Program-made: the position numbers and the translations under genes
The notes under the pieces: model-generated
What the model was told of the DNA's origin: nothing
The model's input: only the letters and a program-made list of their open reading frames with translations
The model's database searches: none
NCBI GenBank assembly: GCA_017632935.1
Contig: JAGBQJ010000055.1
Span: forward strand, 1 to 54,048
Direction: 5' to 3'
Length of the DNA: 54,048 bases
From: Bacteroidales bacterium
GTDB lineage: Bacteria; Bacteroidota; Bacteroidia; Bacteroidales; F082
Part shown: positions 1,336 through 42,978 of the stretch, piece after piece
Layout: each line of letters starts with the position of its first letter
How positions within the stretch are numbered: the stretch's first letter is position 1

Positions 1336-1365
1336 TGTAGAGACGTGCCATGGCGCGTCTCTACA
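1336..1365. repeat. 30-bp palindrome family A, copy 1 (core TGCCATGGCG)
   Basis: Arms TGTAGAGACG and CGTCTCTACA flank a near self-complementary 10-bp core. It lies between two convergent genes and is followed by a T run, so it could also act as a terminator hairpin. Confidence 0.85.
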
Positions 1366-1368
1366 TTT

Positions 1369-1893
1369 TTATTCTATCCATCGGATATAATCGGGTTTAC
1401 GCGGCGCGGCCTCAGGATAATCGCCCATCACATAGCCCAGCACGCAGTTGCCGATACCGACGTATTTCTCAGGAATGCCAAGCTCTTTCAGCAGTTCCTT
1501 ACCCTCGTCAATCATGAAAACCTCACGAGCGCGATGCACCCAGCAGCAGCCCAAGCCTTTGGCATGAGCCGCGTTGAGCAGATTACCCATCACCAAAGCA
1601 CCATCCTCTTTCCACGTGAAAACCGTGCTGTCGGCCATAACCACCAGCACCACGGGCGCGCCAAAGAAGGGATCAAAGTCATCGCGGCCGATAACGACGG
1701 AGTTGAGCCGGCTCAGTTTGTCGCGCACCTCGCGGTTGGTGACAGCCAAAATGATGGCACTCTGACGGTTTTTGCCCGAGGGCGCATACATGCCTGCCTT
1801 GCAAATGTCTTCAATCACCTCTTTGGGAGGCATCTCATCGGTGTAGCTGCGTACGCTGCGACGCGTCATCAAGTCGTGAAGGGTAGTTTCCAT
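1369..1893 (-). CDS. Nitroreductase family protein
   Basis: A 174-residue FMN-dependent nitroreductase-fold protein, probably a cytoplasmic NAD(P)H oxidoreductase of unknown natural substrate. The N-terminal TRRSVRSYTDEMPPKE and APSGKNRQSAII are the usual FMN-phosphate-binding segments, and the central GALVMGNLLNAAHAKGLGCC is the helix after the FMN site. I chose the ATG at 1893 (METTLHDL), not the longer open frame, because the frame upstream of it has no family similarity and overlaps the divergent promoter region. It is transcribed away from the SBF transporter and shares a 91-bp intergenic region with it. The length fits the short clade of the family. Confidence 0.88.
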   Translation of the reverse strand: METTLHDLMTRRSVRSYTDEMPPKEVIEDICKAGMYAPSGKNRQSAIILAVTNREVRDKLSRLNSVVIGRDDFDPFFGAPVVLVVMADSTVFTWKEDGALVMGNLLNAAHAKGLGCCWVHRAREVFMIDEGKELLKELGIPEKYVGIGNCVLGYVMGDYPEAAPRKPDYIRWIE

Positions 1894-1925
1894 AGGATAG
1901 GTTATTGAGATGGTCAAAATATTCG

Positions 1926-1956
1926 TTTGAGGCGGCAAAGGTACGCAATATTTTTG
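1926..1956 (+). promoter_or_regulatory. Bacteroidota sigma-ABfr promoter for the SBF transporter
   Basis: TTTG at 1926-1929, a 19-bp spacer, then TATTTTTG at 1949-1956 match the -33/-7 consensus exactly. A reverse -7 (TACCTTTG, complement of 1936-1943) for the nitroreductase overlaps it, so the two divergent promoters are interlaced. Confidence 0.75.
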
Positions 1957-1984
1957 CAATTTTGCAGCCCGAAATCGGAAATAG

Positions 1985-2884
1985 ATGCAAAAAGTCAAAA
2001 GTTACGTCCTGCCCATCGCCATCGTCTTGGGGCTGCTGCTGCACGAATATTGTGCCGCCCTCAGCGGCGTGGTGCCTTATATCATCTTCAGCATCATCTT
2101 CCTGACTTTCACCGCCGTCGACATACGCCAACTGCGTTTCAAGCCGATGTTCATTTGGATTATCCTCTTCCAGGTTGGGGTGAGTATTGGGATGTATGCC
2201 CTGCTGAAAGCGCTGCATGTCAACGAGATTATCGCCGAAGGCATATTCATCGGGGTGCTATGTCCAGTGGCGGCTGCAGTGGCGGTAGTGAGCACCATGT
2301 TAGGTGCCGACCGTAATACGGTAACCTCCTACACCGTCATTGGCAACTTGGTCATTTCTTTGGTGGCACCCATCTATTTCTCCTTCATCGGCGTAAACCA
2401 GGACATGCCTTTCCTCGAATCATTTTTACAGATTCTGCGCCGCATCGGTGTGGTCATCGGACTGCCGTTTTTCATTGCTTTGGCCTTACAGTTGCTGTGG
2501 CCCAAGGCTAACCGCTTCATCAGCCGTTTTAAGGGACTTGCTTTCTACCTTTGGGCTGCAGCCCTGTTTATGACCCTCGGCCAAACCATACATTTCATCA
2601 TCGTCAAAGGCGAAGGCAACTGGTACAACATCCTGTGGCTTGGCGTATCGGCTTTGGTGTTCTGTGCCATACAATTCGGCCTGGGCAAATGGATCGGACA
2701 CAAATACGGCGACACCATTGCCGGCGGACAACTCCTCGGACAGAAAAACTCCGCCATGGGCATCTGGATAGCCAATCACTACTTAGACCCATTGGCTTCG
2801 GTCTTTTTGGCCTTCTATTCCGTTTTCCAAAACCTGTTCAACAGCTGGCAGATTTGGTACTTCCAGCGGAAAAAGAAAAAATAA
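1985..2884 (+). CDS. Bile acid:sodium symporter (SBF/BASS)-like transporter
   Basis: A 299-residue polytopic inner-membrane protein with about nine or ten predicted membrane segments and no large soluble domain. The GVLCPVAAAVAVVSTMLGAD segment after the fourth helix and the C-terminal GQLLGQKNSAMGIWIA, followed by LDPLASVFLAFYSVFQN, fit the SBF-like fold, in which two inverted repeats each carry a broken helix. The substrate cannot be read from the sequence. It ends in a Lys-rich tail and is followed by a strong hairpin. It looks monocistronic, with a consensus promoter about 30 bp upstream. Confidence 0.75.
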   Translation: MQKVKSYVLPIAIVLGLLLHEYCAALSGVVPYIIFSIIFLTFTAVDIRQLRFKPMFIWIILFQVGVSIGMYALLKALHVNEIIAEGIFIGVLCPVAAAVAVVSTMLGADRNTVTSYTVIGNLVISLVAPIYFSFIGVNQDMPFLESFLQILRRIGVVIGLPFFIALALQLLWPKANRFISRFKGLAFYLWAAALFMTLGQTIHFIIVKGEGNWYNILWLGVSALVFCAIQFGLGKWIGHKYGDTIAGGQLLGQKNSAMGIWIANHYLDPLASVFLAFYSVFQNLFNSWQIWYFQRKKKK

Positions 2885-2934
2885 AGATTCCCTTCGTGGA
2901 GGGCTAAACCGCCTTCCATTTCCGAAGGGAATCT
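2885..2934. terminator. Bidirectional hairpin terminator between convergent genes
   Basis: An imperfect 50-nt hairpin. AGATTCCCTTCG (2885-2896) pairs with CGAAGGGAATCT (2923-2934), and the inner TGGAGGGC pairs with GCCTTCCA. It sits exactly between the stops of the transporter and the metallopeptidase. Confidence 0.7.
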
Positions 2935-2945
2935 ATAATGAAGCA

Positions 2946-3833
2946 TTACAGCGAATTGTACGGAATGTCGAAGGTATTACCGACATTAACAATTTGACCG
3001 CCTTGGACGGACTTGTCCAAGTGAATGCCTTTCTTCAGCCAGCGGGAACGTTGTTCCGAAGTGCCGTGGGTGAAAGTCTCAGGCGCAGTACGTCCATAGG
3101 CCTGCTTTTGCAGGTAGTCGTCACCGATTTTAGCCGCTGCGTCAAGGGCCTCTTCGATGTCGCCGTCTTGAATGGAATTGTACATCTGGTTGTCTTTGTT
3201 GGCCCAAACACCAGCGAAATAGTCGGCTTGCAGTTCCAAACGCACCGTGAGTTGGTTGGCTTCGGGCGAGTTTTGGCCGTATTCAGCTCTCTTTTGGTGC
3301 ACAGGGCCCAAGATACCTAACTGATTCTGCACGTGATGACCCACCTCGTGAGCGATAACGTAAGCGTAAGCAAAGTCACCATCAGCACCAATCTCTCGTT
3401 TCATGTTCTTGAAAAACTCCAAGTCGAGATAGACGGTCTCGTCGGCGGAGCAATAGAACGGTCCGCCCGCCGAAGTGGCGCTGCCGCAGCCTGATTTGAC
3501 GGCATCGGAGAAAATATACAACTTCGGAGGCTGATAGGTCTTGCCCATCTTCCTGAATTCGGCCGTCCAAACATCTTCGGTACCAGCCAAGACCTGACTA
3601 CAGAAGACCATCAATAGGCTGTCTTCTTTGGTCTGTGGGACATTTTCAGAAACGGTCGTTCCTTCGCCCAAGAACGAGCCAAACTGGCTCAAGTCGGGTG
3701 TCTGTCCCGTCAAAAAATAGATAACTACTGCTATCAGAATGCCGCCCAAGCCAATTCCACCGGCCTTCACGGCACCGCCCTTACCGCGGCCATCGACCAC
3801 GTTAGAGCTCTGTCTTCTACCATCCATTTTCAT
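2946..3833 (-). CDS. Neutral zinc metallopeptidase (YpfJ/PF04228 family)
   Basis: A 295-residue membrane-anchored peptidase. A short Gly/Lys-rich cytoplasmic stretch is followed by one transmembrane segment (GLGGILIAVVIYFLTG), then the extracytoplasmic domain. The zinc-binding HEVGHHVQ is visible, as are ELQADYFAGVWA with the third ligand region, and SGCGSATSAGGPFYCSADETVYLD, all typical of this family. The substrate is not known. I start at ATG 3833 (MKMDGRRQ); upstream codons lie in the promoter region, where a reverse -7 (complement of 3865-3872) is seen. It converges on the SBF transporter and shares its terminator. Confidence 0.88.
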   Translation of the reverse strand: MKMDGRRQSSNVVDGRGKGGAVKAGGIGLGGILIAVVIYFLTGQTPDLSQFGSFLGEGTTVSENVPQTKEDSLLMVFCSQVLAGTEDVWTAEFRKMGKTYQPPKLYIFSDAVKSGCGSATSAGGPFYCSADETVYLDLEFFKNMKREIGADGDFAYAYVIAHEVGHHVQNQLGILGPVHQKRAEYGQNSPEANQLTVRLELQADYFAGVWANKDNQMYNSIQDGDIEEALDAAAKIGDDYLQKQAYGRTAPETFTHGTSEQRSRWLKKGIHLDKSVQGGQIVNVGNTFDIPYNSL

Positions 3834-3943
3834 AATGCATACGATTTTAGGGTTAATAATGGCACAAAGATACGGAAAAACTCCCGCTAAAAACCAAGCG
3901 AGGTTTTTTTTTGAAAAAAAGTATGAGAAAAGGAGTGTTTTCC

Positions 3944-9234: not shown

Positions 9235-9264
9235 TGTAGAGACATTTCAGGAAACGTCTCTACT
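9235..9264. repeat. 30-bp palindrome family A, copy 2 (core TTTCAGGAAA)
   Basis: TGTAGAGACA / CGTCTCTACT arms around a near-palindromic core. It overlaps the last codons and stop of elbB (on the minus strand) and lies just after upp. Confidence 0.85.
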
Positions 9265-9921
9265 GATTCCATCCAATGTTTCCACGATGGCCTCAACCAA
9301 ATTGTAGGCACCGTCATAAACGTCCTTCAGCGTGGCATCGAGCATGTAGGCGGGCGTGGTGAAGACCAATAATTCATTGTCGGCGCACACATCGCCATGT
9401 TCGGTCTGCACGTGGAAGGCACCCATCTTGCGGATGTTGTCGGCATCGGGCGTGCCTTCGTTGCCCAAGGTAACGCAAACGCCAGGCAGCAGCTTGGCGA
9501 ACATCACGGGGGCAATGCACATGCCGCCTAAAGGTTTGCCAGCCTCGCGGGTCTCAACGATGGCACGGGCCACGTCGGGCTGCACCTCCATGTCGGCGCC
9601 TTTGTAGGCATAGTCGCACAAGTTTTTCGCCACGCCATAGCCCCCGCTGAAGAGCAGGCCGTCGAAGTCGGCTGCTTTGTATTCCTCGACAGGTTTGACG
9701 TTGCTGCGGGCCAGACGGGCGGCCTCGGTGAGGATGTTGCGTTCCTCCTTCACCTTCTTGTCTGTGAGATGGTCGATGACCTCGGTTTGCGGGCGGTTTG
9801 GCGCAAAGCATTGATATTCACATTGGTGCTGCTCGATGGAGAGCAGAAGGGTGATGGCCTCATTGATTTCGCTGCCGTCCTTGCGGCCGCAACCGGCCAA
9901 GATTACTGCAAATTTCTTCAT
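9247..9921 (-). CDS. elbB: ElbB-like glyoxalase (DJ-1/PfpI superfamily)
   Basis: 224 residues of the ElbB family, known in E. coli as a glyoxalase-type DJ-1 superfamily protein and historically linked to isoprenoid synthesis. The N-terminal FAVILAGCGRKDGSEINEA, the central DGLLFSGGYGVAKNLCDYA, and GGMCIAPVMFAK with the nucleophilic-elbow Cys are the family signatures. ATG 9921 starts exactly at the first strand; a reverse -7 (TATCTTTG, complement of 9948-9955) lies just upstream. The last five residues (SRDVS) and the stop codon are encoded by a family A palindrome, so the natural C-terminus has been replaced or extended by the repeat. Confidence 0.9.
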   Translation of the reverse strand: MKKFAVILAGCGRKDGSEINEAITLLLSIEQHQCEYQCFAPNRPQTEVIDHLTDKKVKEERNILTEAARLARSNVKPVEEYKAADFDGLLFSGGYGVAKNLCDYAYKGADMEVQPDVARAIVETREAGKPLGGMCIAPVMFAKLLPGVCVTLGNEGTPDADNIRKMGAFHVQTEHGDVCADNELLVFTTPAYMLDATLKDVYDGAYNLVEAIVETLDGISRDVS

Positions 9922-9996
9922 GATGATTGATGCGTTGGTTTTGCTCGCAAAGATAACAAAAAACACCCTAAACTTTTATCACAGCGCTTTTTTTCA

Positions 9997-19832: not shown

Positions 19833-21122
19833 ATGGCCAAGAAAATACAAGACCCTGATTTTTGGTACTCGTTCCTGTTACCCTACGTCAACTGGCACAC
19901 ACGGCGGGCTTACAGCAGGTTTGAGGTACACGGAAAGAAGCGCATCCCGAAGGGTGGGGCTTTGATTTTCGGCGTCAACCACAGCAACACGCTGATGGAC
20001 GCCTTGGTCTTGCTTTCGGCCGACAACATCAGGAAGGTCTTCATCGCGCGTGGCGACATCTTCAAAAACCCGGCGGTGGCCAAGATCCTGCATTTTCTGC
20101 GCATCCTGCCCATCTTCCGTATCCGCAACGGCGTGGCGGCCGTACGCCAAAACGATGACTCGCTCAACAAAGCCGTTGATGTCATCCACGACCATGTCGA
20201 CCTTTACCTCTTCCCTGAAGGCACACACCGCACCAAACACTCGCTGATGCGCATGGGCAAGGGCTTGTTCCACATCGCCGTCGACGCCAACAAGCAATTC
20301 GGCGACAAGAGCCCTGTCTACATCATCCCTACCGCCATCGAATACGGTGACTATTTCCGTTACCGTTCCACGGCGATGATCAACTTCGGCGAGCCCATCA
20401 ACGTGACCGAATTCCTCAAAAACACCACCGAGGAAAACGAGGCCGCCAATATCAATCTGTTGAAAGACAGACTCCACGATGAAATCTCCAAACTCTTCAC
20501 CTATATCCCTGACAATGAGGACTATGATGCTATTTGGGAGATTGTGAAGATGAAAAACGAGAAACGCGCTGGAGGCCTTTACAAAAAGATGCTCCGCAAC
20601 CGCGCTACTGTCGAAAAGGTACTCAAATACAGGGAAGAGCAACCCGAAGAAGCCAAAAACCTCTTCGCTCGGGTCATGGACTTTGCCAAGCGGCGCAAAA
20701 AAGAAAAAGTCTCGGTCATGTCGGTGGCGAAGAAGCGTCCTTTCCTCAACTCGCTGTGGATGTTTGCCACACTGCTTGTGTGCTTCCCCTATTATCTGGC
20801 TTCGGCGGCAGTCAATTGGCCCGTATGGCTCACCACTTGGATTATCCGTGGCCGGTTGGCAGACCCTGCCTTTAGCAATACGGTCAGTTTCGGCGTCAGG
20901 TTTGTGCTATCCCCTCTCATTTTCATCGCAGGCACCACCGTCTTGTTCTGCAATCTGCCTTGGTACTGGGCGCTTGGTGGCATGGTCCTGCTCTTCTTCT
21001 CCTACTCCATGTTCGTCGACTACAACGAACTGTTCCGCCGTTGGATCTCCGACATACGCTGGAGCCTCAAGAGCAACTTACGCAAGGAATACAAATCACT
21101 CAACCTTAACAACTTATTCTAA
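19833..21122 (+). CDS. PlsC-like 1-acylglycerol-phosphate acyltransferase
   Basis: 429 residues. The N-terminal acyltransferase domain (about 25-220) shows motif I HSNTLMD (H-X4-D), motif III in LYLFPEGTHRTKHSL, and VYIIPTAIEYGDY. The C-terminal third has three or four membrane segments (FATLLVCFPYYLASAAV, VLSPLIFIAGTTVLFC, GGMVLLFFSYSMF). It probably acylates a lysophospholipid or related acceptor at the inner membrane; the long C-terminal extension is unlike a minimal PlsC. The phosphatase gene starts on the last base of its stop codon, so the two are translationally coupled. Confidence 0.85.
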   Translation: MAKKIQDPDFWYSFLLPYVNWHTRRAYSRFEVHGKKRIPKGGALIFGVNHSNTLMDALVLLSADNIRKVFIARGDIFKNPAVAKILHFLRILPIFRIRNGVAAVRQNDDSLNKAVDVIHDHVDLYLFPEGTHRTKHSLMRMGKGLFHIAVDANKQFGDKSPVYIIPTAIEYGDYFRYRSTAMINFGEPINVTEFLKNTTEENEAANINLLKDRLHDEISKLFTYIPDNEDYDAIWEIVKMKNEKRAGGLYKKMLRNRATVEKVLKYREEQPEEAKNLFARVMDFAKRRKKEKVSVMSVAKKRPFLNSLWMFATLLVCFPYYLASAAVNWPVWLTTWIIRGRLADPAFSNTVSFGVRFVLSPLIFIAGTTVLFCNLPWYWALGGMVLLFFSYSMFVDYNELFRRWISDIRWSLKSNLRKEYKSLNLNNLF

Positions 21123-21832
21123 TGTCAAAACGCTGGATTATCCCCGATATTCATGGCTGCGCCAAAACCGTAAAAGTGCTGCTTGAGAACATGCTCAAGG
21201 TCACGAAAAACGACCAACTCTATTTTTTGGGCGACTACATTGACCGTGGCCCCGACGGCAAAGGTGTCATCGACTACCTCATGCATCTGCAAAAGGAAGA
21301 ATACGAGGTGCATTTCCTGAAAGGCAACCACGAGGACATGTGCGTGAGCGCCTTTGAGGCCGACCAGAAAAAGAAATTCCTTGGCGGCAAGCACACGGAG
21401 CAAAAAGAATGGGAGGCCGTGGGCGCCAAGGCCACTTTGGAGAGTTTCGGAGTGAAGCACCCGCGCGAGATTCCGCAGATGTACATCGACTGGATGAATG
21501 CTTGTTTGCCCTATGTCGAGTTGGAGGATTATATTCTCGTCCATGCGGGCATGAATTTCAACATAGAGAACCCCTTCGAAGACGAACACAGCATGATGTG
21601 GACGCGCAAGTTCAAAGTCGACTTCAACAAGTCGCATGGAAAGAAAATCATCCACGGACATATCCCCGTCGACTACGGCTTCATGAATCTGGTCATCGAG
21701 CAAAACGACAATTACGACTTCATCGTTTTGGACAACGGTGTTTATGTGACCGACAAGCCCGGCCTGGGCAATTTGACAGCCTTCAATCCTGATACGAAAG
21801 AGATTGTTGCCATGTCGAATATGGACATGTAG
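21122..21832 (+). CDS. PPP-family serine/threonine phosphatase-like metallophosphoesterase
   Basis: 236 residues with the three PPP metal-binding motifs: PDIHGC (residues 8-13), FLGDYIDRGPDG and LKGNHEDM; later IHGH and HAGMN contribute the remaining His ligands. It is cytoplasmic with two metal ions; substrates may be phosphoproteins or Ap4A-like nucleotides and cannot be separated here. It overlaps the acyltransferase stop by one base (TAATG). The stop TAG at 21830-21832 lies inside a family A palindrome, so the C-terminus (SNMDM) ends at the repeat boundary. Confidence 0.9.
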   Translation: MSKRWIIPDIHGCAKTVKVLLENMLKVTKNDQLYFLGDYIDRGPDGKGVIDYLMHLQKEEYEVHFLKGNHEDMCVSAFEADQKKKFLGGKHTEQKEWEAVGAKATLESFGVKHPREIPQMYIDWMNACLPYVELEDYILVHAGMNFNIENPFEDEHSMMWTRKFKVDFNKSHGKKIIHGHIPVDYGFMNLVIEQNDNYDFIVLDNGVYVTDKPGLGNLTAFNPDTKEIVAMSNMDM

Positions 21833-21857
21833 AGACGCGCCATGGCACGTCTCTACA
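21828..21857. repeat. 30-bp palindrome family A, copy 3 (core CGCCATGGCA)
   Basis: Perfect arms TGTAGAGACG/CGTCTCTACA. It overlaps the stop codon of the phosphatase and ends 6 bp before the stop of the convergent lamin-tail gene. Confidence 0.88.
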
Positions 21858-29055: not shown

Positions 29056-30381
29056 ATGGCCACTCGCGAACGCATAAAGAAAGGCTTTTCGAAACTTCTC
29101 AAGGAAGAGAAGCTGAAGCTTATTGCCAATTATTTCGAGAACCCGGGCGAGGTCGTCAGCCTGCTGAAAAGCTATTGGCACCCCGACTCGAAGCAGCAGC
29201 AGCTCTTTGATGAGTTCAGCGAGAACACCATCACCAACTTCTATATTCCCTACGGCATCTCGCCCAACGTGACCATCAACGGCAAGGACTATGTCGTGCC
29301 CATGGTCATTGAGGAGAGCTCCGTGGTGGCGGCGGCTTCGGCAGCGGCCAAGTTCTGGGGCGACAGAGGCGGTTTCCATGCCGAGGTCATCGACGTGCGC
29401 AAGGTCGGACAAGTGCACTTCGGCTGGAGTGGCGACAAAGCCAAGCTTTTCGGGTTGTTTCCGAAGATCGAACAACGCCTGTTGCACGACACCGATGCCA
29501 TGACGGAGAAAATGCGCAAGCGCGGCGGCGGCATCCTCGGGATGAAGCTCATCGACTATAGCGCACAAATCCCTGACTATTACCAGATTCGCGTGGAGTT
29601 CGGCACAGGCGACGCCATGGGTGCCAACTTCATCAACTCAGCTTTGGAGCAGTTTGGGCACAGTTTGCAAGATTTCTTTGCCGAGCAAAAAGACCTACCT
29701 GAAGAGCTCCGCAAGGTGGAGATCATCATGACCATCCTCTCAAACAACACGCCCGACTGCCGCGTAAAGGTCTGGGTGGAATGCCCTGTAGAGCAGTTGG
29801 ATGGCATTGATGAACATCTCTCAGGTGCCGAATACGCCAAGAAATTCAAGAAGGCTGTCGACATCGCCCACATCGACATCGACCGTGCCACCACACACAA
29901 CAAGGGTATCTACAACGGCATCGACGCCGTGGTCATCGCCACGGGCAACGACTTCCGTGCCGTGGAGGCCGCCGGTCACACCTTCGCCTCACGCAACGGT
30001 CGCTACGAGAGCCTCTCGAGCGTGACCCTTGAAAACGGCATCTTCCACTTTGAACTGGAAGTGCCAATGGCCTTAGGTACCGTAGGCGGCCTGACCAGTT
30101 TGCATCCGCTAGCCAAGAAAACCCTGGAACTGTTAGGCAATCCCACCGCCAAGGAGCTGATGATGATCGCCGCCACCATGGGCTTGGCCAACAACTTCTC
30201 CGCTGTGCGTTCACTGACCACCAAGGGCATACAAGCCGGTCATATGAAGATGCACTTGAACAATATCTTGAACCAACTCCAGGCCACTGAAGAAGAGAAG
30301 AAGAAGGCACGCGAGTACTTCAAAGACAAGACGGTGTCGTATGCGGGTGTGGAACAATACCTAGACAGCCTGAGAAAATGA
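29056..30381 (+). CDS. mvaA: Class II hydroxymethylglutaryl-CoA reductase
   Basis: 441 residues. It interconverts HMG-CoA and mevalonate with NAD(P)H. Class II features are VPMVIEESSVVAAASAAAKFW with the catalytic Glu, GTGDAMGANFINSALE (cofactor-binding DAMG.N), the Lys region ATTHNKGIYNGIDAV, and the C-terminal flap GHMKMHLNNI with the catalytic His. Database names call this class 'degradative', but in Bacteroidota it is usually the biosynthetic enzyme of the mevalonate pathway. The GHMP kinase gene overlaps its end by 4 bp, which supports that role. Confidence 0.93.
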   Translation: MATRERIKKGFSKLLKEEKLKLIANYFENPGEVVSLLKSYWHPDSKQQQLFDEFSENTITNFYIPYGISPNVTINGKDYVVPMVIEESSVVAAASAAAKFWGDRGGFHAEVIDVRKVGQVHFGWSGDKAKLFGLFPKIEQRLLHDTDAMTEKMRKRGGGILGMKLIDYSAQIPDYYQIRVEFGTGDAMGANFINSALEQFGHSLQDFFAEQKDLPEELRKVEIIMTILSNNTPDCRVKVWVECPVEQLDGIDEHLSGAEYAKKFKKAVDIAHIDIDRATTHNKGIYNGIDAVVIATGNDFRAVEAAGHTFASRNGRYESLSSVTLENGIFHFELEVPMALGTVGGLTSLHPLAKKTLELLGNPTAKELMMIAATMGLANNFSAVRSLTTKGIQAGHMKMHLNNILNQLQATEEEKKKAREYFKDKTVSYAGVEQYLDSLRK

Positions 30382-31313
30382 GCCATTACCAAGCCCACGG
30401 GAAATTCCTTCTGACGGGAGAATACCTCGTCCTGAAAGGTGCTTTGGCCTTGGCTTTGCCGTTGAAATTAGGACAATCATTGACCATAGAGATGTTTCAG
30501 GAAACGTCTTTACAATGGAATGCCTACAAACCTGATGGTCCATGGTTTTCAGTTACAATGGACCCAAAAACCATGGAAATCATTGACTGTGACGACCAAC
30601 CGAAAGCCGAAAGACTGGTACAAATCCTACAGGCTGTCCGAAAGTTGAATCCTTCGGCATTTGAAAGGGGTCTACATTTTGAGACCCGTCTGGATTTTAA
30701 TCCCAACTGGGGCCTTGGTAGCAGCTCTACTTTGATTGCCAACCTCGCTCGTTGGGCGAATGTCAATCCTTACGAACTGCTGAAGCTGACCTTTGGCGGA
30801 TCGGGCTACGACATCGCCTGCGCCACTGGGGAACAACCGATTTATTATCAAATTAAAACCAAGGTCCCTGAGCCCGTCGAAGGGCCGACACCCATGGTTG
30901 AACCTATAGATTTCAACCCACCTTTTGCTGAGCATTTGTTTTTCATCTACCAAGGCCAAAAGCAAAGCTCATCGAAGGAAATCAAAGCCTTTATGGAAAA
31001 GGCGAATCCCGTTGACTTACAAAAAGATATAGAAGCCGTTTCGGAAATCAGCCGCGCCGTGCTGAAATGCCAAAATTTGGATGAATTCGGTCTCTTGATG
31101 CAGTGCCACGAACGCATCATCGCCCGCTGCATCGGGCAGGAACCCGTGCAAAAGCGCTTCCCCGACTTTGAAGGCGTGTTGAAATCCTTGGGCGCTTGGG
31201 GCGGTGATTTCATTCTGGCGGCAACCAACTGGGACGAAAACCAAGTGAAGGCCTATTTCAAGGAAAAAGGCTTAGAGGTGGTTTTTGGATACAAAGAGCT
31301 GGTACTCAATTAG
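30378..31313 (+). CDS. GYDIA-family GHMP kinase (probable mevalonate-pathway kinase)
   Basis: 311 residues of the GHMP kinase superfamily. Motifs: GKFLLTGEYLVLKGALALALP (N-terminal motif 1), NWGLGSSSTLIANLA (ATP-binding motif 2), GGSGYDIACA (the GYDIA motif naming the subfamily), and SLGAWGGDFILAAT (motif 3). Adjacent HMG-CoA reductase genes in Flavobacteria-type operons suggest it phosphorylates mevalonate or phosphomevalonate; the exact step is inference. Two dispersed palindromes are read in frame: residues about 36-46 (TIEMFQETSLQ, family A) and about 162-170 (KVPEPVEGP). They lie outside the kinase motifs. Confidence 0.85.
   Translation: MSHYQAHGKFLLTGEYLVLKGALALALPLKLGQSLTIEMFQETSLQWNAYKPDGPWFSVTMDPKTMEIIDCDDQPKAERLVQILQAVRKLNPSAFERGLHFETRLDFNPNWGLGSSSTLIANLARWANVNPYELLKLTFGGSGYDIACATGEQPIYYQIKTKVPEPVEGPTPMVEPIDFNPPFAEHLFFIYQGQKQSSSKEIKAFMEKANPVDLQKDIEAVSEISRAVLKCQNLDEFGLLMQCHERIIARCIGQEPVQKRFPDFEGVLKSLGAWGGDFILAATNWDENQVKAYFKEKGLEVVFGYKELVLN
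30485..30514. repeat. 30-bp palindrome family A, copy 4, degraded (core TTTCAGGAAA)
   Basis: Aligns over 30 bp with copy 2 with a few mismatches in the arms (GAGATG, GTCTTTACA). Inside the GHMP kinase gene, in frame. Confidence 0.7.
30863..30888. repeat. Palindrome of the CCTGAGC-CCGTCGAAGG type in the GHMP kinase gene
   Basis: GGTCCCTGAGC pairs imperfectly with the following GTCGAAGGGCC. The CTTCGAC..GCTCAGG repeat is known to be dispersed in several bacterial phyla. Read in frame as VPEPVEGP. Confidence 0.65.
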
Positions 31314-33111
31314 TAACTTCCGATACCGTCATCAGGCAATTCTTACAATCAAATTCAAGACGGAAGGTGTTTGCGCCATTACGAATGAACAAAGGCGTGG
31401 CCTTCTGCCCTGTTTCCTTGCTGCACATCCCGTTGGCATAGCGAATGCAATGGTGGCAGGTCATGAGGGCTGCGGGGATCTCATCTGGATCTACCTTGGT
31501 TGAGACGTAAGATTTTGCGTCTCTACAAGGACGATTATTCCGATGATTTTCAATCAATTCATCTGTCAATTTCGTCACCAGGTCGCGTTTCATCTCACCG
31601 ATGACCGAGGCGGGAATCAAACGTGGTTCTGTGAATTGCAATTCCAGATTCACGGAATTGAACACCGTGTCGCCCCATTGCAGGGCCTTCTTGCGGATGT
31701 TTTCGGTGGCCTTTTCGGGGTTGTTGGCGAGGATTTTGTCGCAATGGGTTGTCGTCATTGCGAGCGGAGCGAAGCAATCCAGCAAACAAGTTTCTTTGCC
31801 TAGATTGCTTCGTCGTTCCTCCTCGCAATGACGCGAAGCTGTCAATTCATACCCATCATCCGTTTCAGACAACACCAAATCAATGTCGATTTTGCGGTTG
31901 CCCGTGGAGGCCTCTACCTGTTTTTGCCATTCGAGGTCGTAATTACGGTAGATTTTCGCACCACGGAAGGCACCGTGGGGCCTGTTTGTAGAGACGCGCC
32001 ATGGCACGTGTCTACCATTCGGTACATTTACCACATCTGCACGCAGCCCCACTAATTCATTGTCCTGGTTCAGGAAACACAGGCCATCGCCGTTGTGCAG
32101 GGTCTTTTCGGTGTCGATTTCCATGCGGAGGGGGTTGCACCAGCTGACCTCGCCGATGTATTCGCCCATCGACTTGGGGGTGAAAGGCGAACCAATGCCC
32201 TTCTGCCGGCCATTAATGAAATAATCAGTGAAGCCGCGATTGAAGGATTTCTCGGGGTTGACCTCAAACGTGTAACTGCAATGCCCATGGGAAGCCTGTT
32301 CCAAATCGGAACGACGACTTATGATTTCGTCCAACTTTCGCCGATAATAGGCCGTCACGTTCTTCACATAGTCAGCGTCTTTCAGCCGGCCCTCGATCTT
32401 GAAACTCGTGATGCCTGCATCAATCAATTCTTCCAAATGCGCGCTGTTGTTGAGGTCTTTCAGGCAGAGCAGATGACGGTTCTTGATCAGCAATTTCCCA
32501 TTCTCGTCCAACAAATCCCATGGGAGGCGGCAGGGCTGGGCACAGGCACCACGGTTAGCGCTGCGGTTGCCGATATACTGGCTAAGATAGCACTGCCCGC
32601 TATGGCTGACACACAAGGCTCCATGCACAAAAAACTCCAAAGGCACCGTGGTCTTCTCGCGGATTTCCCGAATCTGTTTCAAACTCAGCTCACGGCCAAG
32701 GACAACCTGTTCGAAACCCAGTTGTTCCAATTGCTGAACTTTCTCCACCGTCAGGTTGTCGCACTGCGTGCTGGCATGAAGCGGAATGGGCGGCAGGTCG
32801 AGTTGGAGCAGTTGCATATCCTGCACGATGAGCGCATCGACGCCAGCGTTCCAGCAGTCGTAGGCTATCTTTCGGGCACGTTCCAACTCACGTTCATACA
32901 GCAAGGTGTTTAGCGTGACGTACACTTTGGCGTCGTACAAGGCCGCATGGCGACAGAGGCGTTCGATGTCTTCGATGCTGTTGGAAGCCTTTTCACGGGC
33001 GCCGAAGTCGGGACCACCGATATAGACGGCATCGGCACCATGGTTGATGGCAGCCATGCCTACCTCGGCATCTTTGGCGGGCGAAAGCAGTTCTATCTTC
33101 TTCGTTTTCAT
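31306..33111 (-). CDS. U32 family peptidase with three in-frame palindrome insertions
   Basis: 601 residues. The N-terminal U32 domain (about 5-300) has IELLSPAKDAEVGMAAINHGADAVYIGG, HASTQCDNLT, FFVHGALCVSHSGQCYLS and NRGACAQPCRLPW, and GITSFKIEGRLKDADYV. Relatives (YegQ, RlhA) act in RNA hydroxylation or proteolysis. The C-terminal half (DUF3656-like) is interrupted by three repeat-derived segments: residues 366-375 (GRHVPWRVST), about 426-452 (RHCEEERRSN ... DCFAPLAMT), and about 529-538 (PCRDAKSYVST). A Cys cluster (CHHCIRYANGMCSKE, FDCKNCLM) closes the protein. Its -7 (complement of 33116-33123) sits 5 bp before the ATG, so the mRNA may be leaderless. The reading frame is intact. Confidence 0.9.
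   Translation of the reverse strand: MKTKKIELLSPAKDAEVGMAAINHGADAVYIGGPDFGAREKASNSIEDIERLCRHAALYDAKVYVTLNTLLYERELERARKIAYDCWNAGVDALIVQDMQLLQLDLPPIPLHASTQCDNLTVEKVQQLEQLGFEQVVLGRELSLKQIREIREKTTVPLEFFVHGALCVSHSGQCYLSQYIGNRSANRGACAQPCRLPWDLLDENGKLLIKNRHLLCLKDLNNSAHLEELIDAGITSFKIEGRLKDADYVKNVTAYYRRKLDEIISRRSDLEQASHGHCSYTFEVNPEKSFNRGFTDYFINGRQKGIGSPFTPKSMGEYIGEVSWCNPLRMEIDTEKTLHNGDGLCFLNQDNELVGLRADVVNVPNGRHVPWRVSTNRPHGAFRGAKIYRNYDLEWQKQVEASTGNRKIDIDLVLSETDDGYELTASRHCEEERRSNLGKETCLLDCFAPLAMTTTHCDKILANNPEKATENIRKKALQWGDTVFNSVNLELQFTEPRLIPASVIGEMKRDLVTKLTDELIENHRNNRPCRDAKSYVSTKVDPDEIPAALMTCHHCIRYANGMCSKETGQKATPLFIRNGANTFRLEFDCKNCLMTVSEVTN
31498..31527. repeat. 30-bp palindrome family A, copy 5 (core TAAGATTTTG)
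   Basis: GGTTGAGACG/CGTCTCTACA arms, the left arm with two mismatches. Inside the U32 gene, read in frame as (P)CRDAKSYVST. Confidence 0.8.
31755..31832. repeat. Family B palindrome, copy 2, inside the U32 gene
   Basis: CATTGCGAGCGGAGCGAAGC (from 31755) pairs with GCTTCGTCGTTCCTCCTCGC (31807-31826) around a loop of about 30 nt. Read in frame on the minus strand as RHCEEERRSN...DCFAPLAMT. Confidence 0.85.
31987..32016. repeat. 30-bp palindrome family A, copy 6 (core CGCCATGGCA)
   Basis: TGTAGAGACG / CGTGTCTACC arms. Inside the U32 gene, read in frame as GRHVPWRVST. Confidence 0.87.
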
Positions 33112-37718: not shown

Positions 37719-39149
37719 ATGGTATTCAGCAGCAACATATTCCTCTTGTTTTTCCTGCCAATCTTCCTGTTGGCCTACTTCGTCACGCCCCAACGGTTCC
37801 GCAACTACACCCTGCTGCTCGCCTCCTTGGTGTTTTACGCCTTCGGTGCCCCTGACTTTATATTGCTGCTCATTGGAGAATGTATCGTCAACTATTTCTT
37901 GGTCAAGGCGATGTATCGTTGTACAGACGGTGCACGCACCGTCTCTACCACAAAGAAAAAACTCTTGTGTGCCCTATCCATCATCATGGCTTTGGGGTTG
38001 TTGCTCTATTTCAAATATGCCAACTTCTTTGTCGACAATCTCAACGCCCTGTTAGGTTGGATGCATCATGTGCCTGTGAAATGGCGCGAGGTGGCTCTGC
38101 CCATCGGCATCTCGTTCTTCACCTTCCAAAGCATCACCTACACCATCGATGTGTATCGCGGCACCACGCAACCCAGCCGTAGCTTGACCGATTACGTGCT
38201 GTATATCATGATGTTCCCGCAGCTCATCGCTGGTCCCATCGTGAGATACAACAGCGTGGCCGCACAAATCATCAGTCGGCAGTCGACGATGGAAGACCGC
38301 ATGACAGGGTTCTACCGTTTCGTCATCGGCTTGGCTAAAAAGGTACTGATTGCCAACACTTTGGCACAAGTCGCCGACCAAGCCTTTGGCATGGGTAGCG
38401 GCCTCTCAACAGGTGCGGCATGGATAGGCATGTTGTCTTACACCTTCCAGATTTATTTCGACTTCTCAGGTTACAGCGACATGGCCATCGGCTTGGGCCG
38501 AATGATGGGTTTCAGCTTCCCCGAGAACTTCATGAATCCCTACACCAGCCGCAGTATCACCGAGTTTTGGCGCCGTTGGCACATGACCCTCGGCACCTTC
38601 ATGAAGGAATACCTTTACATCCCTTTGGGAGGCAACCGCAAAGGCGCGGCACGTACCTACCTCAACCTTGTCATCGTCTTTCTCTGCTCGGGTTTCTGGC
38701 ATGGTGCCGCATGGACCTTCGTGCTTTGGGGTGCTTTCCATGGACTCTTCCAGATCTTCGACCGCATAGGCATGGCCAAGGTATTGGACAAGATGGGCAA
38801 GCTGCCCTCCATGCTATTGACCTTCTTTGTGGTCAATCTGGGCTGGGTGCTGTTTCGTGCCGATGGGGTGCAACAGGCTGGAGCATTCTACCAAGCCTTG
38901 TTCTCCTTCAAAGGCGGGGCTGCGCTTGCTTTGGATGCCCGTTTCTGGACCGTGTTCGCCTTAGCCGTCGTGTTCTCCTTCATCACCTTGCTGAAAGGCG
39001 GACAGAAGCTGCAAGACCGCATCTTTGCCGAGACTTATACTATTAGTCGCAGCTGGGTGATGTTTGCCGTAACCGCCCTGTTGTTTATCCTTTCCGTCGG
39101 CTCGCTGATGGTGTCCGACTTCAACCCGTTCATCTATTTCCGATTCTGA
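37719..39149 (+). CDS. MBOAT family O-acyltransferase (AlgI-like), paralogue 2
   Basis: 476 residues, polytopic. FFTFQSITYTIDVYRG, MFPQLIAGPIVRYN, FDFSGYSDMAIGLGRMMGF, His288 in FWRRWHMTLG and His328 in SGFWHGAAWTF match paralogue 1 at all key sites. Residues 68-77 (CTDGARTVST) are encoded exactly by a family A palindrome, codon for codon; paralogue 1 has six fewer residues in the same loop between membrane segments, so this is an insertion. Gap to the next gene is 4 bp. Probable role: acetyl transfer across the inner membrane to one of the AlgJ-like partners. Confidence 0.92.
   Translation: MVFSSNIFLLFFLPIFLLAYFVTPQRFRNYTLLLASLVFYAFGAPDFILLLIGECIVNYFLVKAMYRCTDGARTVSTTKKKLLCALSIIMALGLLLYFKYANFFVDNLNALLGWMHHVPVKWREVALPIGISFFTFQSITYTIDVYRGTTQPSRSLTDYVLYIMMFPQLIAGPIVRYNSVAAQIISRQSTMEDRMTGFYRFVIGLAKKVLIANTLAQVADQAFGMGSGLSTGAAWIGMLSYTFQIYFDFSGYSDMAIGLGRMMGFSFPENFMNPYTSRSITEFWRRWHMTLGTFMKEYLYIPLGGNRKGAARTYLNLVIVFLCSGFWHGAAWTFVLWGAFHGLFQIFDRIGMAKVLDKMGKLPSMLLTFFVVNLGWVLFRADGVQQAGAFYQALFSFKGGAALALDARFWTVFALAVVFSFITLLKGGQKLQDRIFAETYTISRSWVMFAVTALLFILSVGSLMVSDFNPFIYFRF
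37920..37949. repeat. 30-bp palindrome family A, copy 7 (core GTGCACGCAC)
   Basis: TGTACAGACG/CGTCTCTACC arms. In frame with, and codon-aligned to, the second MBOAT gene (ten codons). Confidence 0.85.
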
Positions 39150-39153
39150 CGCA

Positions 39154-41115
39154 ATGAAAAAGAAAACAATATACGACATAGTGCTTTTCGCCCTGCTGGG
39201 CATCTTGGCCTTCTTGCCGATGGCGCAGGAGCATCTGCACCTTTTCGACTTGAAGCATCTGGTCGGCGTGATGGTCGAAGCCAAAAAGCCAGAGCTGACC
39301 AAAGAAAGCTATGTCTCATGCCAATACCAGCAACAGATGGAAGCCTATGCCGCACAAAACTTCGGTTTCCACGAGAGCATCATCCGCCTTTACAACCAAT
39401 ACCTTTACGACTTCTATCGCAAGACCTATAACGAGGAGATTGTCCCAGGCAGAGACGGCTGGTTTTACTATCAGCAGAACGTGAACGACTACTATGGCAC
39501 GGAGATGTACCGCTGGCAGTCCACCGTCGAAGAAGCCAAGGCGACCTACGACCGCGAGGCTCGCCTGATGTGGAAGCTGAGAGGCGTGCTCCACGACTAC
39601 GACAAAGAGTTCCTTGTGTTCATGGCACCCGAGAAGGGTTTCCTCTATCCCGAGCATCTGCCCAAACGGCAAATCGACACCACCACCATCAATGCGAGGC
39701 TGTATTATTCCAAAAAGTTCGATGAGTACGACTTCCCTTACATCGAGATGACGAAATGGTTCCAAGGCATCAAGGAAGCCGACACAGTGCCTTATATCCT
39801 CATTCCCCAGTCGGGAGCACACTGGAGCTTCTCATCGGTCATCGCCGCCGACTCGCTGTTCCGTTTCATGGGCAGCCTGAAAAACGAGAAACTGGGCACC
39901 TTGAAAGTCGGACCGCTGCGAGAAAGCTCGGAGCAGACTAAGAACGGCGACTACGACCTCGAAAACACCTTGAACCTCTGGCGCACCGTGTCGCACAAAG
40001 GAGAAAAACTACTGGATGCCGAGGTGACTGTCATATCTGACTCAACCACGGTCAAGCCCAATGTGCTGTTTATCGGCAACTCCTACCTGTTCCGCATGAA
40101 CTATTTCGTCCCGTTCGAGGATATGTTTTCCTATTCCGACTATTGGTTTTACAACTCCACCGCCTATTACGGCAAAGACTATGCACTCAAGAAAAGCGTT
40201 GGTGAAATTGACTTCCTGCAACGGCTCATGGATGCCGACTATGTGGTTTGGTTTACCACAGGCAACCAGATGTATAAGGTCAGCTATGGCTTTGTGGAAC
40301 GGGCTTTGATGACTCTGTGCCTCAGCGATGACCGCGTCAATGGTGTCCGCGAACAACTGATGGATAGCCTGCGTTGCGACAGCGCCTTCATGTCGACCAT
40401 CGACACCCTCACCGAGCCAAAAGACCTTGAGTTCAGAAGACAGCTGTGGCAACAATCGAACATCATCATCAATCGCAACCCCGAATACTATTTCCCCGAG
40501 CTGGCTGGCGACAGCATCCCCACGATCAGAAACCCGAAAATACCTGAGTGTTTGATTATTAAAGACATCAAAAAAGATGCGGACTGGATAATCAACCTGC
40601 AATGCCAAACCATCATCCGCAATGCCTCCTTGGACAACATACTGAAGATGGAAGCGCAAAACGTTCTCAACGGCAGGCCGCTGATGCGCGATGAACACGA
40701 TGTGGTCTCCAAAGAAAACTATGTGAACAGCCTTGTAGCCGAAATGAAGCAGGAACTGATGCAAAAACCAGCTTCCGTCCAGTCCATCAAGGACAAGGCT
40801 GCTGCAAAAGGCCGAACCTTCGAAGAACAGCTTGAGGGCGATGCCCGTTGGGTGATCAACGACAAAATCAACAGGGGCGTGATTGACTTGAGCAGCTTTG
40901 CAGAAGAAGAACAGAAGAGAAACCTCCAAAAGACCATCGACGAATGGGTGCGCGACATGGAACAGGAACTGCTCGGAAAGCCGGCTTCAGTGCAGTCCAT
41001 CAAGGAGAAAGCCGCTGCTAAAGGCAGAACCTTTGAAGAACAACTCCATGCCGATGCCCAATGGATCATCAACGACAAAATCAGCCGAGGTGTAATCAGC
41101 GTGGAGAATCCTTAA
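39154..41115 (+). CDS. AlgJ-like SGNH protein, paralogue 3, with altered triad and long repeat tail
   Basis: 653 residues, the longest of the three. Membrane anchor IVLFALLGILAFLPMAQEH, then an AlgJ/AlgX-like domain with FHESIIRLYNQYLYDFYRKT and MAPEKGFLYPEHLPKR. The DxHW motif reads SGAHWSFS: His223 is kept and Gly replaces the Asp. The nucleophile block is FIGNSYLF with Ser310, in place of GDSF. The C-terminus has a degenerate copy (about 470-510) and two near-identical copies (about 540-580 and 604-645) of the helical tail motif; 34 of 40 residues match between the last two. Its partner is presumably the MBOAT gene 4 bp upstream. Confidence 0.78.
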   Translation: MKKKTIYDIVLFALLGILAFLPMAQEHLHLFDLKHLVGVMVEAKKPELTKESYVSCQYQQQMEAYAAQNFGFHESIIRLYNQYLYDFYRKTYNEEIVPGRDGWFYYQQNVNDYYGTEMYRWQSTVEEAKATYDREARLMWKLRGVLHDYDKEFLVFMAPEKGFLYPEHLPKRQIDTTTINARLYYSKKFDEYDFPYIEMTKWFQGIKEADTVPYILIPQSGAHWSFSSVIAADSLFRFMGSLKNEKLGTLKVGPLRESSEQTKNGDYDLENTLNLWRTVSHKGEKLLDAEVTVISDSTTVKPNVLFIGNSYLFRMNYFVPFEDMFSYSDYWFYNSTAYYGKDYALKKSVGEIDFLQRLMDADYVVWFTTGNQMYKVSYGFVERALMTLCLSDDRVNGVREQLMDSLRCDSAFMSTIDTLTEPKDLEFRRQLWQQSNIIINRNPEYYFPELAGDSIPTIRNPKIPECLIIKDIKKDADWIINLQCQTIIRNASLDNILKMEAQNVLNGRPLMRDEHDVVSKENYVNSLVAEMKQELMQKPASVQSIKDKAAAKGRTFEEQLEGDARWVINDKINRGVIDLSSFAEEEQKRNLQKTIDEWVRDMEQELLGKPASVQSIKEKAAAKGRTFEEQLHADAQWIINDKISRGVISVENP

Positions 41116-42914
41116 TACCTGACTATACGCTGTGCATAGCTCCCCACTTTCAGCACATATACGCCAGCAGGAAGATGGGGCTTGAAAATGATTTCGTTGC
41201 CGTTGTCATTGCCGCTGCAAGTCCCGGAAAAGACCTTTCTGCCCATAACATCGTAGATGGCCACCTCTTCCCCCTTGTAATTGTTTGATTGATAACGCAA
41301 ACGGATCTCGTCAGTAAAAGGATTGGGATAGCATGACACCGCAACAGAGGTCGACTCCCAAACGGCAAGATAATCCTTGATTTCCTCCCTGAAATATTCA
41401 TGGCGTTGACGCATGAACTCGTCAGCTTTCTCCATATCCGTAAACCATCGGTTCATACTCCATGGGAAATGGAAGCGGTTATACTGGTCTTCAACCTCAC
41501 CTTCAACGAGTTGACGGTATTCGTCCAATACCGATTTCATGAAATCATAACCGAAAGACGTTTGCGAAAGCTCATTGTAACGCTTGCAGAATTGGAATCT
41601 AAACCCCTTGTTCTCCAAGAAACGATTCATTACCATGCTGTTACCCTCTTGCTGAAGTGCATGGTCAAGCGCCTGATAATCGACCCGAGAGAAACAACCA
41701 TCACCATCGTAAAACATCATGCGGAAAGGTTTCCCAGGTGCCAATTGTCCGATTTTTACATTGTTGTTCACCCAATCCAGATTGGCGGTAAAGGTCTCCA
41801 AAAGGATATAGTCGATGAAACTGGGCACATCCATGTGATCGTAAGCATAAGCCGAGTCTTCAGGTTGGGTCAGGTCGGCATGCGACATGAACGAATAGAA
41901 ACTACGCCACTCGTTGATGTCGCCGTAATTGGGCAGTCCCCAATACTTGACGATGGCAATGCTATCAAGGTCGGCATTATAGTGTTCTTTCAGATAATGC
42001 TCATCCGCAGACTCCTCCATAGTATAGATGCCCCAATACTCGCCGTTGATGAACAAGACAATCTGCCTTACAGACAAGGCATCTATGTTCAACTTACCAG
42101 CCACTTTTTGCGACAAGTAGTCGGTGCCGCCCATCTGCAGCCAGTTGCTGCAACGGTACGGGTGCAAGCAGAAATTCTTGTACTTGACGATGGGCGAGTC
42201 CTTAAAAAACCGGAACAGGAAATGCTTCTTGCCATATTCTTCACGGGCGAACAGCTTCATGCCTTTCTGTTGAAACCACCGCGAAGCATTCCCATGCGTG
42301 CGCATGCCGCATAGCTGGTTGATACCCGTGTTGTCAGGCTCGTAAAACTCCATATTAATCTGTCGCTCCCATTCGTCTCCCCTCATCTTATAATTGCCCG
42401 TATGGGTCGAGTCTGCAGGATCGTAGTTGATGCCCGGAACGAAGTTGCCCGTCTCATAGTCAAACAGCGACAAGGAATCCGCCATGATTGACAACACCGG
42501 CAGGCCATGCAGGTCACAACCCAACGAACGGATGAAATAGGAATTGCTGACGACCCAACTCACGCAGCTGTCGTTTTCGTCGAACACCGCTGCTCGGATG
42601 ACAATACCGCGTTTCACATCATTGGGCAGATAAAACTGAGACGGAATCGTGTTGTTAATGGTGTAGATGTTCGATTTTGAGAACATGGAAGCATTCAACG
42701 TCATGGCGCCTTCATAACGCGGCGACTGCGCCGTAGGGTTATTGCCGTTGGTGGTGTAACGGATATGGTATTGCGGATTGGTATTGCTAAGCCTCAAAGC
42801 GAACACATTATCGTAGAAGCCACCTTGGGCAGAGAATAACACCGTATCATTTTGGGCTTGCGCTAAAATGACGGCAAAGAATAATGACCATATCAACCAA
42901 AGACGCTTACGCAT
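41112..42914 (-). CDS. CotH-kinase-family T9SS cargo protein
   Basis: 600 residues, signal peptide ending at LAQAQ. An N-terminal chitobiase C-terminal-like Ig domain (about 25-110; HIRYTTNGNNPTAQSPRYEG) precedes the CotH domain (about 130-490) with GMRTHGNASRWFQQKGMKLFA, VLFINGEYWGIYTMEE and the metal-binding YDGDGCF. CotH proteins are atypical protein kinases; exported ones in Bacteroidota have unknown targets. A type A sorting domain ends the protein (CYPNPFTDEIRLRY ... GVYVLKVG). It starts at ATG 42914, behind a reverse -7 at the complement of 42933-42940. Its stop overlaps the end of the convergent AlgJ-like gene by 4 bp. Confidence 0.88.
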   Translation of the reverse strand: MRKRLWLIWSLFFAVILAQAQNDTVLFSAQGGFYDNVFALRLSNTNPQYHIRYTTNGNNPTAQSPRYEGAMTLNASMFSKSNIYTINNTIPSQFYLPNDVKRGIVIRAAVFDENDSCVSWVVSNSYFIRSLGCDLHGLPVLSIMADSLSLFDYETGNFVPGINYDPADSTHTGNYKMRGDEWERQINMEFYEPDNTGINQLCGMRTHGNASRWFQQKGMKLFAREEYGKKHFLFRFFKDSPIVKYKNFCLHPYRCSNWLQMGGTDYLSQKVAGKLNIDALSVRQIVLFINGEYWGIYTMEESADEHYLKEHYNADLDSIAIVKYWGLPNYGDINEWRSFYSFMSHADLTQPEDSAYAYDHMDVPSFIDYILLETFTANLDWVNNNVKIGQLAPGKPFRMMFYDGDGCFSRVDYQALDHALQQEGNSMVMNRFLENKGFRFQFCKRYNELSQTSFGYDFMKSVLDEYRQLVEGEVEDQYNRFHFPWSMNRWFTDMEKADEFMRQRHEYFREEIKDYLAVWESTSVAVSCYPNPFTDEIRLRYQSNNYKGEEVAIYDVMGRKVFSGTCSGNDNGNEIIFKPHLPAGVYVLKVGSYAQRIVRY

Positions 42915-42948
42915 ATTATTGCAATGATGTCGCAAAAATACAAAAAAA

Positions 42949-42978
42949 TGTAGAGACGTGGTGCGCCACGTCTCTACA
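42949..42978. repeat. 30-bp palindrome family A, copy 8 (core TGGTGCGCCA)
   Basis: Perfect 10-bp arms; the stem continues into the core for 13 bp. It lies between the S46 gene end and the CotH gene promoter. Confidence 0.88.

Follow-up and report, generated by a model that had tools for sequence, protein, structure and literature searches.

Constant-arm palindromes of a Bacteroidales genome: ten-base-pair cores that follow RAYT lineage and differ at orthologous sites

How can a short palindrome keep its arms throughout a genome while its centre changes from copy to copy and stays self-complementary? This question is raised by a stretch of 54,048 nucleotides from a Bacteroidales bacterium (contig JAGBQJ010000055.1 of assembly GCA_017632935.1; the whole stretch is called the window below), for which a preliminary description made from the sequence alone had listed eight 30-bp palindromes with fixed arms and variable 10-bp cores. 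Our analysis indicates that these palindromes are very probably double-foot repetitive extragenic palindromes (REPs) spread by REP-associated tyrosine transposases (RAYTs), the core being the mark of one RAYT lineage and replaceable at sites already occupied.

Searching the window for GTAGAGACG-N10-CGTCTCTAC with up to three mismatches recovered all eight copies at the positions given for them, as compared with a mean of 0.02 matches in 100 shuffles. The shared arms hold as a consensus but are not identical, because arm changes are present in five of the eight copies: the 9+9 arm positions are perfect in three, carry one change in four and three changes in one (30485). The cores read as listed and are near-palindromic, with four of five positions pairing in seven copies and three of five in one (31498); none is a perfect palindrome, and at least four pairs would arise by chance in 1.6% of cores. 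In the source genome (G000; 2.86 Mb in 62 contigs, 92% complete; genomes and loci are cited by G and L numbers), the pattern, with up to three mismatches, occurs in 114 copies against 3 for the pattern read backwards, and thus well beyond chance. A G000 sample of 452,048 bases (the window and 20 further stretches) was used to define the anatomy. With up to two arm mismatches, the spacing between arms was 10 in 28 of 29 copies and 22 in the other, with no other spacing between 0 and 40; with up to three mismatches, 34 copies were spaced by 10 and 11 by all other values combined. In 33 of these 34 copies the core pairs at 4 or 5 of 5 positions, so that the expected non-random self-complementarity of the cores was borne out.

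Scanning the same sample for the inner stem gave 35 matches, with a GTA/TAC foot on both sides in 23, on one side in 10 and on neither in 2, one of the footless matches being an overlapping register of its neighbour and the other lacking a matching core. GTAG or GTGG accordingly stands beside a short palindrome at both ends in 23 of 33 elements and at one end in 10, and the palindromes begin with GT[AG]G and end with C[TC]AC as double-foot REPs do. One-footed copies at positions 2673/2724 and 3030/3078 of L121 form inverted pairs with GTAG outward, which is the REPIN arrangement. With regard to terminal repeats of a longer element, as in a MITE of a DDE transposon, exact arms apart from any palindrome were encountered four times in the 452 kb, plus one cut by a stretch end, and none was linked to a transposon. 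Open frames hold 24 of the 34 copies, an upper bound given that such frames cover 94% of the sample, and several copies sit in genes with Pfam matches; the in-frame copies use only the two TAG-free phases (15 and 9 of 24). We would read the element as a self-complementary core of 10 bp enclosed by a constant outer stem, GAGACG/CGTCTC, with a GTAG guide at each end.

The hint of a RAYT-type transposase in the preliminary description proved right, although the Y1_Tnp model missed the relevant genes at first. PF01797 (Y1_Tnp) finds two genes in G000; no palindrome (up to three mismatches) was located near any of 30 PF01797 loci, and G005 and G015, with 73 and 28 palindromes, gave no PF01797 match. 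PF01797 counts, which had a rho of 0.11 with copy density in 24 genomes, were rejected as a RAYT measure. Among eight RAYT proteins, three exceed the cut-off of this model, one falls below it and four have no match; the model suits this RAYT group badly. Two of the G021 palindromes are in-frame parts of RAYT-like genes and stand between MPDHLHAIV and YIVRNP. Using one G021 RAYT-like protein as query, homologues were found in 36 of 60 genomes, including G005 and G015. Among 49 distinct RAYT loci, 30 carry a palindrome in the gene (up to four arm mismatches), 3 only beside it (within 500 bases) and 16 neither; 29 of the 30 in-gene palindromes follow the HUH motif (the one in L487 precedes it), and 28 leave the frame without a stop.

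The HxH, WQ and Y-x-x-N-N motifs are conserved in 12 aligned RAYT proteins, and many RAYTs deviate from NH[IFV]H / YIxNNP by having NHLH or DHLH and YIENNV, in which the last P is replaced. A profile of the 12 proteins had TnpA_REP 4er8 (1.7e-7) as its only match at E<=0.01 among solved structures. Eight of eight proteins match the NCBIfam equivalog NF047646 (REP_Tyr_transpos) at 45.8-64.1 bits, below its curated cut-off of 80, and are relatives rather than members by its cut-off rule. With phylogeny ignored, and with RAYT numbers per genome read and merged by hand from match lists, RAYT number and palindrome density correlate, at rho 0.72 across the genus (36 genomes) and 0.71 across the rest of the order (24 genomes). 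In L121, G000 also carries a truncated RAYT reduced to its C-terminal part (65% identity to L468); a GTGCATGCAC pair lies at the start of this remnant and a CGCCATGGCA pair follows it, which fits RAYT loss after spread of the elements without proving it. The elements would be non-autonomous and spread by RAYTs of the TnpA_REP (HUH/Y1) type that resemble subclass 2.4.

Core class is locked to RAYT clade. Across 23 RAYT loci with at least two palindromes (75 in total), 88% of 94 within-locus core pairs differ by at most two positions, as compared with 13% after shuffling (highest value among 2000 shuffles, 27%). On a tree of 45 RAYTs (30 labelled), built after cutting out the stretch following the HUH motif so that the insert was removed, 14 core classes need 13 changes, the minimum, as against 19-24 in 200 shuffles. 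With the genome used as label, 24 changes are needed for 19 genomes; an earlier tree of 32 rows needed 9 changes for 10 core classes (20 shuffles, 13-17). L450 and L458 were omitted from the tree for their broken frames, and L457 and L463 because the cut motif was not found in them; L449 and L474 are duplicates. The insert of L487 was left uncut, its palindrome lying before the HUH motif, and had no effect on the change count because it is the only member of its class. Core labels were assigned by hand, mixed loci being given the in-gene core or the commoner one. G024 and G002 each carry RAYTs of three different cores. The core follows RAYT lineage, not host genome, and its classes contain near-variants such as CACGGCCGTG/CACGACCGTG and CAAAATTTTG/CAAGATTTTG.

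In an outside check of 227 loci fetched by DNA pattern, a RAYT-like match occurred in 12, and all 12 have a palindrome within 600 bases, partly because the loci had been chosen by DNA pattern. Seven of these RAYTs matched over most of the protein, at 50-61% identity (the queries still contained the insert): in four the core departs from that of the nearest RAYT by at most one position, in two it is GTGCATGCAC as against GTGTGCACAC in the nearest, and in the last it differs. One of the 12, a cyanobacterial RAYT from Planktothrix rubescens (L286), has an in-gene palindrome with a core unlike that of its nearest RAYT, which is 39% identical. By core counts read and merged by hand from match lists, copies outside the RAYT locus are commoner where a cognate RAYT was found for CACGGCCGTG (p 0.0014, with G014 scored as RAYT-positive on a fragment, L456), CAAAATTTTG (p 0.0075) and CGATKMATCG (p 0.0002). 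These patterns suggest that RAYTs keep the same palindrome within and beside their own gene, that the arms are universal among members and the core marks one RAYT lineage, and that the core is most likely part of what the cognate RAYT recognises. A chromosome that had met several RAYT lineages would therefore display several cores within one frame.

Cores of 8 or 9 bp (GTGTGCAC, CAAATTTG, CATTGAATG) with unchanged arms were also seen, at L165 (G016), L190 (G019), and L479 and L474 (G000, contig C5), the 9-bp type lying about 200 bases ahead of a RAYT in G000 and G016. Related palindromes with other arms (GTAGGGGCG...CGCCCCTAC and GTAGGGACG...GTCCCTAC) occur at position 1707 of L460 (G038) and in L059 (G029), there at the site corresponding to window position 31498. 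They are located at the same site of a gene, or else within or close to RAYT genes, and the arm itself may therefore differ between larger families.

If the core marks a RAYT lineage, what happens to it at a fixed site? G021 and G016 are sisters (93.7% identity over 3.1 kb compared; the next relatives of G021 reach at most 86%), and at 15 orthologous sites with a palindrome in both, the 60-base flanks are on average 92.4% identical. The core was kept (at most two changes) at 7 sites, had three differences at 1 and was another core at 7, of which six differ by at least 4 of 10 positions and one by length. Point mutation at the flank rate would give such core differences at 0.5% of sites, and arm departures amount to 0.022 per position. 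The G021/G016 cores are, for example, GTGTGCACAC/TAGCGCGCTA at L135, CGGCGTGCCA/TAGCGCGCTA at L144 and TGCCATGGCG/TAGCACGCTA at L160, and many replaced cores are classes present at other loci. Of the 20 sites that keep flanks at 85% or more when all genomes are compared, 12 show exchange in at least one pair. Five of 35 G021 sites were omitted as clustered or neighbouring (L131, L132, L133, L136, L137), 15 of the 30 others had a palindrome aligned in G016, and two matches to the paralogous L220 were excluded; sites without a usable alignment in G016, which is 77% complete, were not counted as losses. Misassembly is an unlikely source of the core differences, because the repeats are far shorter than usual sequencing reads.

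Two of the sites could be polarised. At L149, the rare variant CGCCATAGCA is common to G021 and the outgroup G031, and G016 has TAGCGCGCTA; at L156, CACGGCCGTG is common to G021 and G029, and G016 has CAAAATTTTG, with all three genomes also carrying a RAYT of the core displayed. Since the outgroups share the G021 core, the ancestral sites were occupied and the change took place in G016. Small changes adjoining the palindrome accompany some exchanges (L149, L135). The preliminary idea that the hairpin is kept while its core changes stands in outline, but no drift by compensatory mutation was seen: the classes follow RAYT clades, and orthologous sites differ by whole blocks. At an occupied site, the core would thus appear replaceable by that of another RAYT, with arms and flanks staying in place. 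We tentatively propose, as a possible route, a cassette exchange made by the enzyme itself, in which a RAYT would recognise the shared GTAG arms of any resident copy and overwrite the core with its own.

Alternatively, and in our judgement rather unlikely, nothing may be exchanged in place, and different REPs may insert independently at the same preferred points, such as hairpin loops, terminators and flexible protein loops. Some copies do lie in or beside native hairpins (L153, L156), and palindrome-free sites exist in relatives (L153, L155, L158), a plain hairpin occupying L153 in G000, G019 and G024; the palindrome in the peptidase U32 gene of G060 (L069) aligns shifted relative to that of G000, which would suit a separate insertion. 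Preference for native hairpin loops gave a weak signal, with flank stems of at least 6 in 8 of 65 copies versus 2.6 in shuffled sequence (maximum 8 in 1000). However, independent insertion is difficult to reconcile with L149 and L156, where the ancestor was occupied and G016 changed, and with junctions that are mostly identical to the base.

Host recombination or replication template switching between copies, free of any RAYT, could also replace cores if the arms served as short homology and the core were copied from another locus, a route that we regard as doubtful. It would accommodate the common, nearly unchanged arms, the failure of the abundant core CGCCATGGCA to track RAYT presence, and positions 9349-9388 of L122 in G000, which resemble a partly duplicated palindrome. 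By contrast, the homology available is only about 9-10 bp per arm, which is short for RecA-type recombination, and the tight link between core and RAYT lineage is not predicted. Gradual paired mutation, with selection or hairpin-templated correction preserving self-complementarity as the core drifts, is very improbable and was already disfavoured, because, although it would yield the near-variants within classes, it leaves unexplained the 7 of 15 cores that differ as blocks, the scarcity of arm departures and the recurrence of replaced cores as classes known from other loci. That the palindromes are immobile regulatory sites under selection (terminators or binding sites), as copies in or beside terminator-like hairpins (L153, L135) and the REP roles discussed in PMC3733652 might suggest, is hardly credible given copy numbers of 2 to 94 in the 35 other genomes of the genus, many copies in open frames in only two stop-free phases and variable positions relative to genes across the genus.

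Returning to REPs spread by RAYTs with lineage-specific cores, several observations weigh against this explanation. L458, L467, L468 and L490 contain mixed cores, and core mismatches were found in one of the seven best outside RAYTs and in the cyanobacterial RAYT. CGCCATGGCA, the commonest G000 core in the copies listed, does not track RAYT presence (p 0.27), and G003 has a CAAAATTTTG RAYT, yet no CAAAATTTTG copy elsewhere by pattern search. The 16 RAYT loci without a palindrome within 500 bases belong here, together with 11 genomes of the genus that have palindromes but no RAYT (by one query, in incomplete genomes) and the disregard of phylogeny in the correlations between RAYTs and palindromes.

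The palindromes extend well beyond this genome. Copies are present in 48 of the 60 genomes searched, G000 included, with 2 to 94 in each of the 35 other genomes of the genus and 0 or 1 for controls. A scan of species genomes found at least 118 stretches with the palindrome, and among the matches listed most are from Bacteroidota and Cyanobacteria, the latter including Calothrix, Nostoc, Dulcicalothrix, Planktothrix and others; titles among these matches also name Spirochaetales, Anaerolineae, Zixibacteria, Planctomycetaceae, Acidobacteria, Desulfuromonas, Desulfamplus, Cloacimonadota, Methylococcales and Moranbacteria. A lone distant match is weak evidence, because by our own arithmetic about 4 exact matches to 18 fixed bases are expected by chance in 257 Gb. 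At least four of five core positions pair in 131 of 146 exact copies, against 1.6% expected. The core CAAAATTTTG is common to Bacteroidales and Calothrix, and CGATTAATCG occurs in Cyanobacteria, Bacteroidia and Methylococcales. An IMG/VR scan (109 stretches) was used only for core statistics and within the 227-locus outside check, because host fragments cannot be excluded there. The mention of similar cyanobacterial repeats in the preliminary description finds sequence-level support among the matches listed; small dispersed repeats of cyanobacteria were reportedly treated as very small mobile repeats by Elhai et al. in 2008, judging by title and citation.

How do these elements relate to known systems? 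Papers are cited here for the parts of their text that were available. TnpA_REP subclass 2.4 has double-foot REPs with 5' GT[AG]G and C[TC]AC at the other end, lying in frame in the tnpA_REP gene between the HUH and Y motifs, in Cyanobacteria, Bacteroidetes and scattered phyla, and central deletion within an inverted pair has been suggested as their origin (PMC6006769). Feet at both ends, the in-gene, in-frame REP and the host phyla are shared with the present elements; a REP inside the RAYT gene is found in 30 of our 49 loci and not in 19. By anatomy and motifs, not by tree placement, the palindromes and RAYTs appear most like subclass 2.4. Unlike that subclass as described, they combine one constant arm with many RAYT-specific cores and with differing cores at orthologous dispersed sites. 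That REP class goes with RAYT lineage and RAYT presence with REP number is established elsewhere (PMC2817692, PMC3686654), and our elements behave likewise. In an 'orthoswitch', an orthologous RAYT gene comes to have another REP class, and the older REPs are expected to remain in place and decay (PMC3686654), whereas the cores described here change at dispersed sites remote from RAYT genes.

GTAG-tagged REPs are palindromes of 20-40 bp with inverted pairs and intragenic copies, found in Cyanobacteria among others (PMC3733652). Tag, palindrome size, inverted pairs and intragenic copies are features in common, but their tag is described as unpaired and at one end, as opposed to GTAG/CTAC at both ends here. 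Different REPs at about the same recB site in two Xanthomonas species (PMC3733652) are the nearest precedent that we found for core exchange. Rickettsia palindromic elements also lie in frame in protein genes and carry a CGTC tag at one end; repeats of the CGTC type are said to have no transposase of their own (PMC3733652). In contrast, our palindromes have no CGTC tag at one end, terminate in GTAG/CTAC and are associated with RAYTs. The arm GTAGAGAC is absent from the main text of PMC3733652 (figures excluded), and literature searches by arm letters gave nothing relevant among the matches listed. Earlier work has described REPs and RAYTs, the coevolution of the two, and double-foot REPs that lie within RAYT genes (PMC2817692, PMC3686654, PMC6006769, PMC3733652). 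A constant arm with RAYT-specific cores was not found in the available text of these four papers, nor, the recB remark excepted, was core replacement at dispersed sites in that of PMC3686654, PMC3116915, PMC6006769 and PMC3733652; wider literature searches, with subscription papers mostly outside their scope, gave no pointer to the latter.

Within the window, the eight palindromes (given without strand) occupy varied positions relative to genes. The double-foot palindrome at 1336..1365 has core TGCCATGGCG and no mismatch in its 9+9 arms. The copy at 9235..9264 (core TTTCAGGAAA) overlaps the 3' end of an open frame (9247-9966, minus strand) and provides its stop codon, and the TAG of the double-foot copy at 21828..21857 (core CGCCATGGCA) is the end of a metallophosphatase-like open frame (21122-21832). 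The copy with three arm changes at 30485..30514 (core TTTCAGGAAA) is in frame (...TIEMFQETSL...) in an open frame (30378-31313) for which a Pfam search gave no match; its surroundings align with 30 loci of relatives, some overlapping, where cores such as TGCCATGGCG, TTTCCTGAAA and GTTTGCACAC are found or the palindrome is absent. Two copies are in frame in a peptidase U32 gene (31306-33111, minus strand), one at 31498..31527 (core TAAGATTTTG with three of five pairs, one foot altered) and one at 31987..32016 (core CGCCATGGCA, one arm change; GRHVPWRVST). Another, with core GTGCACGCAC and one arm change, is in frame at 37920..37949 in an MBOAT gene (37719-39149, plus strand). The double-foot copy at 42949..42978 (core TGGTGCGCCA) corresponds to residues ~45-55 of a CotH-like open frame (41112-43112, minus strand), whose true start could be further downstream.

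An Rfam search of the window gave zero matches. The window carries Type IX secretion tail domains, which point to Bacteroidota; among 80 named loci compared, the nearest are L281, from a Bacteroidales isolate of horse faeces (74-84% over two stretches), and L279, from Bacteroidales isolate RUG182 (74% over 963 bases). A different dispersed repeat of about 87 bases (GTCATTGCGAGCGGAGCGAAGCAATCC ... ATTGCTTCGTCG...CCTCGCAATGAC; ~31753-31839) lies inside the U32 gene between its two palindromes; G000 has at least six more copies and relatives have many, and most U32 alignments of the relatives are interrupted at the repeat. Elsewhere in G021 and G000, four of seven in-gene proteins tested (L150, L128, L106, L124) carry the palindrome in frame inside a C-terminal sorting domain of type IX secretion, called by Por_Secre_tail over its cut-off, and a fifth (L122) has a weaker match. 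Three palindromes of L124 (G000, contig C28; 3578, 5101 and 6624) are exactly 1523 bases apart with identical 12-base flanks on both sides; the open frames that contain them are 434-447 codons long and form a tandem gene array carrying the element.

Little is understood of how REPs disseminate, and the abstract of PMC8266576 poses the question of how RAYTs recognise perfect palindromes. A good set for finding what a RAYT reads is offered here by many RAYT lineages, the arms of their palindromes being constant and the 10-bp core different. If cassette exchange is true, fixed sites would be docking points rewritten by competing RAYT lineages, and the core mix of a genome would show which RAYTs had most recently been active. 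Core changes at fixed sites would then supply a direct genomic record of RAYT activity, and core change could also account for the occurrence of a single palindrome frame, with the same cores, in several phyla.

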